A DNA stretch of 64,000 nt. It comes from Gemmobacter aquatilis (GTDB lineage: Bacteria; Pseudomonadota; Alphaproteobacteria; Rhodobacterales; Rhodobacteraceae). The translations under genes and the position numbers were made by a program. Of the stretch, positions 24,289 to 31,178 are shown piece after piece. The stretch's first letter is position 1; every line of letters begins with the position of its first letter. The notes beneath the pieces were generated by a model. It was not told where the DNA came from. It did no database searches and saw only the letters and a program-made list of their open reading frames with translations. The stretch is taken from positions 248,001 to 312,000 of the forward strand of contig NZ_FOCE01000003.1 of NCBI RefSeq assembly GCF_900110025.1, given 5' to 3'.

Positions 24289-25163
24289 CACAGACCCCCC
24301 TCTGTCAAGGGCGCCAACCGCCCGCGCTGCCCCGCCGCATGCCGCGACGCGCAGAAATCGGTGTCCGAACAGACAAACATCCGCCCGCCCGCATCATCCA
24401 CGATCACCTCATCCAGATAGCTGTCGCCCGCGCCGCACAGATCGCAATCGTGATCGGCCTTGCTGGCAACAAACGGATGATCCTCGAAATCCAGACTGAC
24501 CACGTCGCAGAACGGCGGCAGCGCATAGATCCGCTGCTCGCGCCCCGCCCCGAACAACTGGATCGCCGCACAGCCCGCCAGCTTCGGATTGTCGAATTTC
24601 GGGATCGGCGACGGGTCCATCACATAGCGTCCCTCCACCTTCACCGGATAGGCGTAAGAGGTGGCAATCGCGCCATGCCGCGCGATGTCCTCATACAGTT
24701 TCACATGCATCAGCCCGTATTCTTCCAACTCATGCATCTTGCGCGTCTCGCTCTCGCGCGGCTCCAGAAAGCGCAACGGCTCCGGGATCGGCACCTGATA
24801 GACCAGAATCTGCCCCGCGCGCAGCGGCACTTCCGGGATGCGGTGGCGCGTCTGGATCAGCGTCGCCTCGGCGGTGGCCCCCGTCACCGCCACCCCCGCC
24901 ACCCGCTGAAAGAACGCCCGGATCGACACCGCGTTGGTCGTGTCATCAGCGCCCTGATCAATCACCTTCAGTTGGTCCTCCGGCACCAGACAGGCCGCCG
25001 TCACCTGCACGCCGCCCGTGCCCCAGCCATAAGGCATCGGCATCTCGCGGCTGGCAAACGGCACCTGATAGCCGGGCACCGCAATCCCCTTCAGGATCGC
25101 CCGACGGATCATCCGCTTGGTCTGTTCGTCCAGATAGGCGAAATTGTAAGCCTGATCGCTCAT
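24288..25163 (-). CDS. phnJ: C-P lyase core radical enzyme PhnJ
   Basis: PhnJ cleaves the carbon-phosphorus bond of ribosyl alkylphosphonate, using a [4Fe-4S] cluster, SAM and glycyl/thiyl radicals. In this 291-residue protein C240, C243, C265 and C271 correspond to the E. coli cluster cysteines and the catalytic thiyl cysteine (CDLCGAG...CSDTDFC). G31 in VPGYQVPF fits the radical glycine. The ATG at 25163 overlaps the stop of the upstream DUF559 gene (ATGA), where phnI would normally be coupled. Confidence 0.96.
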   Translation of the reverse strand: MSDQAYNFAYLDEQTKRMIRRAILKGIAVPGYQVPFASREMPMPYGWGTGGVQVTAACLVPEDQLKVIDQGADDTTNAVSIRAFFQRVAGVAVTGATAEATLIQTRHRIPEVPLRAGQILVYQVPIPEPLRFLEPRESETRKMHELEEYGLMHVKLYEDIARHGAIATSYAYPVKVEGRYVMDPSPIPKFDNPKLAGCAAIQLFGAGREQRIYALPPFCDVVSLDFEDHPFVASKADHDCDLCGAGDSYLDEVIVDDAGGRMFVCSDTDFCASRHAAGQRGRLAPLTEGGL

Positions 25164-25498
25164 CGCCGCAGTTCCTCTGCAATCATCTGCATCACACCGG
25201 GCAGATTGCCCCGCACATCGGAGTTCCAGACCCGCAACACGCGAAACCCCTGCCCCGCCAACCAGCAATCCCGCTGCGCATCGCACAGGCCGCCATGCTG
25301 CCCACCATCGACCTCAAGGATCAGCCGATGGGCCGCACAATAGAAATCGGCGATATAGGGGCCGACCGGCACCTGCCTGCGGAACTTGGCGCCACACAGC
25401 CGCCGGTCGCGCAGCGCGAACCACAGCACCCGTTCGGCCTCCGTCATCTGCTGCCGCAACTCGCGCGCATAGGATTTCTGCCACTCCCGCTGCCGCAC
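25160..25498 (-). CDS. DUF559 PD-(D/E)XK nuclease-like protein
   Basis: A DUF559 domain related to Vsr-type endonucleases: RELRQQMTEAERVLWFALRDRR, then FRRQVPVGPYIADFYC and the catalytic-type LILEVDGGQH, ending in GFRVLRVWNSDV. The acidic residues of the PD-(D/E)XK site are intact. I propose the GTG at 25498 (112 residues, AGGGGG upstream); ATG at 25447 is the other option. The frame stays open far upstream through the tandem repeats, but that stretch is repeat translation (TPALSPEGRG) and not DUF559. It lies inside the phn operon and overlaps phnJ by four bases. Role unknown. Confidence 0.8.
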   Translation of the reverse strand: MRQREWQKSYARELRQQMTEAERVLWFALRDRRLCGAKFRRQVPVGPYIADFYCAAHRLILEVDGGQHGGLCDAQRDCWLAGQGFRVLRVWNSDVRGNLPGVMQMIAEELRR

Positions 25499-25501
25499 CG
25501 C

Positions 25502-25545
25502 CCGCCCCCTCACCCTGGCCCTCTCCCCCGAGGGGAGAGGGAAGC
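25502..25545. repeat. Single palindromic element ahead of DUF559 gene
   Basis: CCTCACCCTGGCCCTCTCCC followed by CCGAGGGGAGAGGGAAG: the same CCCTCTCCCC-GGGGAGAGGG palindrome as in the 102-bp repeats and at 31140. This class of dispersed palindrome often translates as PALSPEGRG. Confidence 0.65.
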
Positions 25546-25586
25546 GCCAGCGGTCAGGCTGCACCCGACATGGTAAGCGGCAGGTT

Positions 25587-25862
25587 AACGCGCCCCGCGA
25601 ATCCCCCAGCACGCCAGAACTCCCTCTCCCCCCGGGGGAGAGGGCGGGGGTGAGGGGACGACATACGCCCAAATCACCATCGCCCCCCAACGCGCCCCGC
25701 AAATCCCCCAGCGCGCCAGAACTCCCTCTCCCCTCGGGGGAGAGGGCGGGGGGGCGGGGACGACATACGCCCAAATCACCATCGCCCCCCAACGCGCCCC
25801 GCAAATCCCCCAGCGCGCCGGAACTCCCTCTCCCCTCGGGGGAGAGGGCGGGGGTGAGGGGA
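25587..25862. repeat. 102-bp tandem repeat array in phnI-phnJ gap
   Basis: Three direct copies start at 25587, 25689 and 25791 with an exact 102-base period; the third is cut off at about 72 bases. Copies one and two differ at only a few positions. Each contains a palindrome CTCCCTCTCC / GGGGGAGAGGG with GCGGGGGTGAGGGG, then a unique GACGACATACGCCCAAATC spacer. Because 102 is divisible by three, the minus-strand frame stays open through all copies (34-residue period). It separates phnI from DUF559-phnJ. Confidence 0.9.
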
Positions 25863-25875
25863 ACCCGCCCCCCAC

Positions 25876-26958
25876 TCATTCCGCCGCCTCCGCCTGCCCC
25901 AGCGCCTCGGCACGCAGTCGCCGCACCAGCTCCAGTTCGGCCTGAAAATCCACGTAATGCGGCAGCTTGATATGCTCCAGAAACCCGGTCGCCTGAATGT
26001 TGTCGCAGTGATACAGCACGAATTCCGCATCCTGCGCCGGGGCGCCGGTGAAATCCTCACCCAGCTCCTCCCAGCGCAGCGCCCGGTCCACCAACGACAT
26101 CGCAATCGCCTTGCGCTCGCTCTGCCCCAGCACCAACCCATAGCCGCGGGTGAACTGCGCCGGTTCGGTTTTCGACCCCTTGAACTGGTTCACCGTCTCG
26201 CATTCCGTCAGCTCGATCTCGCCGATCTCCACCGCGAAGCCCAACTCGGGGATCTCCATCTCCACCGCCACGGCGCCGATGCGCAATTCGCCGACAAAGG
26301 CATGGGTGCGCCCGTAGCCGCGCTGGGTGCTGTAGGCCATCGACAGCACGAAGCCCTCATCCCCCCGCGCCAGCGCCTGCAGGCGCAAGGGCCGCCCGGC
26401 GGGCATCTCCAACGGCTCGCGCGTCAGGTCGGGCGGCACGGCGGCGCCCTGCGGCTCCTGCTCGATCAGCCCGTCGCGGTCCAGCATCGCCATCACATGC
26501 GGCACCGGCCCGCCGCTCGCCAAAGCCATCGGCGCCACCGGCACCTCGCCCTCTGCCGCCAGTTTGAAATCCAGCAGGCGATGCGTGTAATCGAAGGTCG
26601 GCCCCAGCACCTGCCCACCCGGCAGATCCTTGAACGTGGCCGACACCCGCCGCACCACCGCCATCTGCCCCGTCTCCACCGGCACCGATCCGCCAAAGCG
26701 CGGCAGCGTCGTGCGATAGGCGCGGATCAGGAACACCGCCTCGATCAGATCGCCGCGCGCCTGCTTGATCGCCAGCGCCGCCAGATCGGGGTCATACAGC
26801 GAGCCTTCCGCCATCACCCGGTTCACCGCCAGCCGCAACTGCTCGCGGATCTGCGCCACCGAAAGCTCGGCCACGCCGGGGTCGCCCCGCCGTTCTTCGG
26901 CCAGAAACGCATGGGCATTGCCGATCGCCCGCTCGCCGCCCTTTACCGCCACATACAT
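25876..26958 (-). CDS. phnI: C-P lyase core subunit PhnI
   Basis: PhnI, with PhnG, PhnH and PhnL, replaces adenine of ATP by the phosphonate to make ribosyl-phosphonate triphosphate, and forms the PhnG2H2I2J2 core. This 360-residue protein has the family opening MYVAVKGGERAI, the middle segment FDYTHRLLDFKLAAEG, and the C-terminal YHCDNIQATGFLEHIKLPHYVDFQAEL. Its ATG at 26958 overlaps the phnH stop by one base (TGATG). Downstream, the tandem repeat array separates it from phnJ, an unusual break in the operon. Confidence 0.95.
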   Translation of the reverse strand: MYVAVKGGERAIGNAHAFLAEERRGDPGVAELSVAQIREQLRLAVNRVMAEGSLYDPDLAALAIKQARGDLIEAVFLIRAYRTTLPRFGGSVPVETGQMAVVRRVSATFKDLPGGQVLGPTFDYTHRLLDFKLAAEGEVPVAPMALASGGPVPHVMAMLDRDGLIEQEPQGAAVPPDLTREPLEMPAGRPLRLQALARGDEGFVLSMAYSTQRGYGRTHAFVGELRIGAVAVEMEIPELGFAVEIGEIELTECETVNQFKGSKTEPAQFTRGYGLVLGQSERKAIAMSLVDRALRWEELGEDFTGAPAQDAEFVLYHCDNIQATGFLEHIKLPHYVDFQAELELVRRLRAEALGQAEAAE

Positions 26959-27527
26959 CAGACAGCCTCCACACGGGTGGACCGGGGCAACCCGGCCAGC
27001 CGGTCGCCACAGGTGAAAAAGCAATCAAGGCCCAGCGGAAACAGCGCCCGGTTGGCCTGAAACGCCGCCACCTCGGGCAGCGACAGCGCCGCCTCATCCG
27101 CGATCCCCGGCCCGCGCAGCCGCACCCCCGCCGGTTCCAGCACCGGCAGTTCCACGATCAGCGTCGCTGCCCGGTCCGGGTAATCCGCCGTGCCGATGGC
27201 AAAGCGCCCGACCGGCTGCAACGCCGCCCAGTCGCCCAGCGCGAACACCGCGTCCGCCGCCCCCACCAGCGGCGCCCCGCAGTGGAACACCACCCAGTCG
27301 CGCACCGCCGGGCAATCCCATTCCCCCGCCAGATGCACCGGAGTCGTGGCGTCGGCCAGCACCAGCAGCAACACCCCCGCCGCCACCGACAGTGGCGCAG
27401 GCGGAGCCGCTCCCGCCACGGTTTCAATCTGCCCCGGCCGCGCCAGCGCCTCCAGCGCCGCGCGGAACCCCTGCGCCGCCTGCACCGGCGCGTCGGCAAA
27501 GCCGCCCGTCAAAGCCTCGGCCCTCAT
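26958..27527 (-). CDS. phnH: C-P lyase core subunit PhnH
   Basis: A 189-residue PhnH, a component of the C-P lyase core with a PLP-transferase-like fold but no cofactor. Recognisable parts are GGFADAPVQAAQGFRAALEALARPG at the start, and FPLGLDCFFTCGDRLAGLPRSTRVE at the end, which is strongly conserved. The ATG at 27527 forms an ATGA overlap with the phnG stop, so phnG, phnH and phnI are translationally coupled. Confidence 0.94.
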   Translation of the reverse strand: MRAEALTGGFADAPVQAAQGFRAALEALARPGQIETVAGAAPPAPLSVAAGVLLLVLADATTPVHLAGEWDCPAVRDWVVFHCGAPLVGAADAVFALGDWAALQPVGRFAIGTADYPDRAATLIVELPVLEPAGVRLRGPGIADEAALSLPEVAAFQANRALFPLGLDCFFTCGDRLAGLPRSTRVEAV

Positions 27528-30174: not shown

Positions 30175-30328
30175 CCCTCCCCCTTCAGGGGGGAGGGCTG
30201 GGGTGGGGGTGGACCCGGCGCAAGGGGCAAGCCTCCCCCTCATATCACCACCATCCATCCCCCCAAAACCACCCGACCGAACCGGGCGCCCCCTCCCCCT
30301 TCAGGGGGGAGGGTTGGGGTGGGGGTGA
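30175..30328. repeat. Pair of CCCTCCCCC/GGGGGGAGGG palindromes
   Basis: An identical 23-base palindromic core (CCCTCCCCCTTC then AGGGGGGAGGG) occurs at 30175-30197 and 30291-30313. Each is followed by YTGGGGTGGGGGTG and preceded by related CCAAAACCAC...CCGACCGGGC sequence, so a unit of about 116 bases has been duplicated. Confidence 0.75.
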
Positions 30329-31138: not shown

Positions 31139-31178
31139 GCCCTCTCCCCTCGGGGGAGAGGGTTGGGTGAGGGGGCCA
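31139..31178. repeat. CCCTCTCCCC palindrome between phnE2 and transferase
   Basis: CCCTCTCCCC-TC-GGGGGAGAGGG followed by TTGGGTGAGGGGG. It is the same palindrome family as the 25587 array. It begins where phnE2 ends, so the hairpin may stabilise or end the phnC-D-E-E message. Confidence 0.65.

Follow-up and report, generated by a model that had tools for sequence, protein, structure and literature searches.

A DUF559 nuclease gene between phnI and phnJ in Gemmobacter aquatilis adjoins members of a widespread hairpin family that it may spread

Several described systems resemble the locus reported here. The TM_ECO repeat, also named BoxC or PIT, is an intrastrand-triplex motif which has been tied to genome instability and near which, according to the authors in the available part of their paper, transposase or integrase remnants were never found (Holder et al. 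2015, PMC4666352); the words "DUF", "endonuclease" and "ycjD" are all absent from its main text. In REPtrons, as described in the available parts of PMC3733652 and PMC3116915, the gene of a RAYT enzyme is flanked by palindromes (REPINs), and further palindromes and inverted pairs are abundant at other sites, an arrangement which recurs here. Insertion-sequence MITEs are short elements which carry the terminal inverted repeats of a gene-bearing one, and elements of this kind are described below. Homing leads to insertion at one allelic site, in contrast to the palindromes of our locus, copies of which lie at many genomic sites.

The DNA analysed is a stretch of 64,000 nucleotides from G. aquatilis (the window), in which the phosphonate-degradation genes phnI (25876..26961, minus strand; ORF list and Pfam match) and phnJ (24291..25163, minus strand; Pfam match) are separated by a repeat array and an open DUF559 frame of 239 aa (25160..25879, minus strand), as an earlier sequence-only reading had proposed and as TRF, the ORF list and Pfam bear out. 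The frame matches PF04480 at residues 134-237 with 123.7 bits against a curated cut-off of 20.6, which places it in DUF559, and it may start either at the ATG overlapping the phnI stop or at a start inside the frame, close to the first palindrome. That reading was also right that the minus-strand frame runs through the array, where the ORF has no break, and that the DUF559 stop overlaps the phnJ start; both ends of the ORF carry an ATGA overlap, the start with the phnI stop and the stop with the phnJ start. These overlaps are consistent with DUF559 having been adopted as a translational coupler for phnJ, but in the unfilled congener G512, phnI and phnJ are joined directly by the same ATGA overlap.

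The junction had been taken for a one-off, but 6 of the 19 PF04480 places in 120 genomes of the family sit between phnI and phnJ (one a fragment and two apparently degenerate). Nor is it shared by most relatives, the case which the earlier reading had named as contrary to it: only two of the eight genus genomes with a clear phnI-phnJ match are filled. One of these is the congener G519, with the same phnI-DUF559-phnJ order and a single inverted palindrome pair. In the six other congeners having phnI and phnJ, no DUF559 match was found at the junction. An apparent remnant of the end of DUF559 was read by eye at the phn junction of G515, and in G513 (locus L163) another open stretch, a HAD-like gene by eye, lies between phnI and phnJ at the DUF559 position. 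A tree of the phn-linked DUF559 genes divides them into two groups, and a single clade for them was not rejected (p-AU 0.311, four of six rows).

The tandem array (25587..25862; TRF) has 2.7 copies of 102 bp with 95% matches. It had been called exact, which is true of the period and not of the copies: the first two are identical at 97 of 102 bases, and the third, which is partial, matches copy 1 at 68 of 72. Each unit contains a palindrome with a tail, at 25621..25660 in unit 1 and 25825..25861 in unit 3 (both by reading, as fits to the TM_ECO consensus) and, with an altered tail, at 25723..25762 in unit 2 (by inverted-repeat search and reading). A fourth palindrome, absent from the earlier reading, lies at 25506..25542 (inverted repeats I1 and I2); it is inverted relative to the next three, with its tail toward DUF559. 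Units 1 and 3 match the BoxC/PIT/TM_ECO pattern CCCTCNCCC N3-6 GGGNGAGGG N3 GGGNGAGGG, from which the tail of unit 2 departs. The hairpin and tail, the inverted pairs and the intergenic position are the same as described in the available part of PMC4666352; the difference is that no mobility genes are reported nearby there, whereas DUF559 adjoins the palindromes here. Rfam matches to the palindrome had scores under the gathering threshold and were set aside.

Because G519 has a single inverted pair at the same place, the 102-bp array is probably a local amplification: a single element would first have occupied the phnI-phnJ junction, its outer half being amplified into the array at a later stage. 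For the window locus alone, a plain tandem duplication of an intergenic palindrome, to which DUF559 is irrelevant, would account for the array, and further tandem arrays of the palindrome are readable elsewhere in the genome (L012 and L017); it does not account for the linkage of DUF559 to hairpins at other loci, and we regard it as very improbable.

The palindrome core has 50 exact copies in the window's genome (G000), compared with none for a reversed control pattern, and the genome has one PF04480 match. Among the copies read, several form inverted pairs with outward tails and others occur singly or as short tandem arrays. Within the same gene cluster, a single palindrome with a tail lies between two genes at 31140..31177; it occurs in G000 and G519 but not in six congeners, making this a filled/unfilled site. 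A second stem type (CCCTCCCC) is represented at 30175..30327, between two cluster genes, by two tailed palindromes in the same orientation. The CCCTCCCC palindrome also occurs 29 times in G034, yet that genome gave no PF04480 match. Dispersed matches to the repeat stretch within the genus were found in G000 and G519, the two genomes with DUF559; the only other was one weak 33-base hit in G517, with none in the rest of the six other congeners.

The window's repeats are members of a widespread hairpin family which often adjoins a small nuclease gene. A strict pattern failed to detect palindromes with other stems, and hairpins were therefore scanned without a fixed motif. Hairpins with a pyrimidine 5' arm were found ≤ 400 bp from the DUF559 core at 72 of 80 loci from genome contigs and 76 of 80 from the phylum (nine duplicates and L124 excluded), compared with 2 and 0 of 80 for purine-armed control hairpins of the same composition. 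Among the 77 loci ≥ 4 kb long, there was a hairpin near DUF559 in 69, against a mean of 3.0 and a maximum of 9 for random spans > 1.5 kb away. One 80-locus set is the best 80 of 577 confirmed relatives, the query pattern came from an alignment of hairpin-bearing loci, and 60 regions were hand-picked from the best-scoring hits in genomes with several copies; the association therefore holds for strong DUF559 genes and not for all of PF04480. In the family, hairpins were found at 10 of the 19 PF04480 places in the 120 genomes, and the nine places without one (eight weak matches in frames of > 1000 aa and one fragment) count against DUF559 as the mobiliser. At L123, DUF559 is flanked by a differing, more AT-rich palindrome (CCCTCTTTG...AAAGAGGG).

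Hairpins were present on both sides of DUF559 (≤ 450 bp) at 98 of 168 loci, a set which retains one duplicate (L043 = L025), and the first 8 stem bases agreed between the flanking hairpins at 65 of these 98, compared with 15.5 expected from shuffling. Protein and stem similarity were weakly correlated (Mantel r 0.129), which counts against mobilisation by DUF559. DUF559 matches were found in 44 of 72,556 plasmid records and 3 of 50,697 phage records, and such hairpins were also near DUF559 in the three plasmid records in which they were read (S. meliloti, Deinococcus and N. gonorrhoeae). In S. meliloti pSymB (L338), where an ISRm16 transposase gene is nearby, a palindrome pair lies upstream of DUF559, and downstream there is an inverted copy which seems truncated. 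The linkage of DUF559 and palindromes in loci of many groups supports the earlier suggestion that DUF559 arrived with the repeats.

Palindromes and DUF559 also occurred together across genomes. Among 398 genomes of the phylum, at least 10 palindromes were found in 82 of the 110 with strong DUF559 and in 14 of the 288 others. Odds ratios lay between 25 and 68, in the same direction at each cut-off tried; all cut-offs were picked after the data had been seen, and the ratios ignore relatedness. In families with both states, where genomes with a weak match alone were scored as being without DUF559, the palindrome median was higher with DUF559 in 14 of 17, lower in 2 and tied in 1 (sign test: p = 0.004). 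The 28 of 110 DUF559 genomes which were not palindrome-rich count against a mobilising role. It should be noted that the profile search of an E. coli control genome gave no PF04480 match, although ycjD of K-12 scores 167 bits against this profile, and so "no DUF559" in the genome searches is not proof of absence.

Some genomes have DUF559 copies at two separate places, and the signs of mobility are clearest in the genus of G312 and G526. G312 has two copies which are 86% alike over 589 bp and carry the same ~100-bp terminal inverted repeats at their ends; end to end they measure 566 and 568 bp, barely beyond the DUF559 frame plus the inverted repeats. In G312 and G526, which belong to one genus, elements of 267-297 bp (8 with both ends read), too short for DUF559, have the same ~100-bp terminal inverted repeats. 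Inverted repeats common to gene-bearing and shorter copies, as in insertion-sequence MITEs, are thus seen in G312 and G526 and not in the window's own element; the elements differ from such MITEs in that their gene is a DUF559 nuclease and that a clear target-site duplication is not seen. No simple duplication was visible at the elements, the flanks of which are GC-rich and GGCGCC-like, and this argues against a mobiliser. Two further DUF559 copies, in G497, are 96.9% alike over 619 bp.

It is unlikely, in our judgement, that another enzyme mobilises the palindromes, with DUF559 having settled between them as a passenger or a domesticated nuclease. Of the 96 palindrome-rich genomes, the 14 in which no strong DUF559 match was found are in favour of this and count against DUF559; also in its favour is the presence in 12 of 34 genomes searched of Y1_Tnp (PF01797; RAYT/IS200), the transposase family for which we searched. 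Against it, the search for Y1_Tnp gave no match in the other 22 of the 34, including the window's genome, and the G312 copies hold little besides the DUF559 frame and inverted repeats. As in REPtrons, the window's genome has palindromes both beside the enzyme gene and dispersed; unlike in REPtrons, no Y1_Tnp match was found in G000 or G519, where the neighbour of the palindromes is DUF559, nor in G312 or G526.

In E. coli K-12, ycjD is separated by 167 bp from the published TM_ECO no. 9, and an apparent degenerate second TM_ECO copy was read by eye at the ycjD stop. The fabI-ycjD-sapF query was at least 80% covered in 3362 of 5426 E. coli genomes. At this place, either the eef operon or ycjD is described in the available part of PMC12817139, for that paper's own assemblies; in two E. 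coli loci without ycjD (L157 and L158) we saw efflux genes beside sapF, two of them annotated as broken in the O157:H7 record. Two other E. coli sites were rejected: alignment gave no clean empty site for hrpB-mrcB, which counts against mobilisation by DUF559, and none for alx-sstT.

The structure model of the window's DUF559 (pLDDT 91.3) matched 3hrl and, by its fold, the catalytic domain of the homing endonuclease I-Bth0305I (3r3p; E = 1.4e-4), with a weaker match to Vsr (1vsr; E = 0.059). Among 50 aligned rows, T23, E26, W30, F43, R44, R45, Q46, P48, G50, D55, E66, D68, H72 and R93 were invariant. The protein is thus predicted to have a nuclease fold of the Vsr/homing (PD-(D/E)XK-like) kind, with E26, D55, E66, D68 and H72 as its conserved acidic and histidine residues, which sets it apart from RAYT, a HuH-type tyrosine transposase. 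Values of dN/dS were 0.05-0.35 in six of seven DUF559 pairs (0.227 for the window against G519), and the seventh gave no value. PADLOC returned a weak DpdF match alone. We know of no nuclease of Vsr/homing-type fold which joins DNA unaided, and this counts against DUF559 as a mobiliser.

A Vsr-like repair or surveillance nuclease, acting on hairpin or triplex DNA and encoded beside its targets, for example for autoregulation, would agree with the fold, with the DNA damage response to which the Caulobacter DUF559 protein VsrA is connected in the available part of PMC12907096, and with the genome instability linked to the motif in that of PMC4666352. It would leave unexplained the stems matched on both sides of DUF559 and the other elements with the same ends, and the linkage to repeats seen here is itself a difference from Vsr; we think this explanation quite improbable.

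Association is not action. The DUF559 nuclease may spread hairpins around genomes, and by analogy with RAYTs, which are linked to REPINs, we infer that it mobilises the palindrome elements. Our favoured reading, held with some reserve, is that a very small mobile element, with tailed palindromes as its ends, has the window's DUF559 as its gene, which acts in trans on the numerous gene-less copies of such ends. The computed support consists of the association, the matching flanking stems, the co-occurrence, element copies at multiple places, filled and unfilled sites, and a nuclease fold with conserved residues. In such an element, the DUF559 protein would recognise the hairpins, perhaps as single strands exposed during replication, and would cut at or near them, after which host repair or replication would finish the copying. 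More tentatively, DUF559 nucleases could be the enzymes of an unrecognised minimal class of bacterial mobile element, moved by a nuclease of Vsr/homing type and not by any known class of transposase, the gene-less descendants of which would include E. coli BoxC/PIT and similar palindromes of other phyla.

The palindrome itself is already known as BoxC/PIT/TM_ECO. Its association with DUF559 was not found in the literature searched, outside which most subscription journals and bioRxiv preprints lie, and this is weak evidence of novelty. If mobilisation by DUF559 is true, a role would be assigned to a common domain of unknown function, represented in E. coli by ycjD, and an origin to a repeat family near which the available part of PMC4666352 reported no mobility genes; both the function of DUF559 and the source of the repeats are testable in laboratory E. 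coli.
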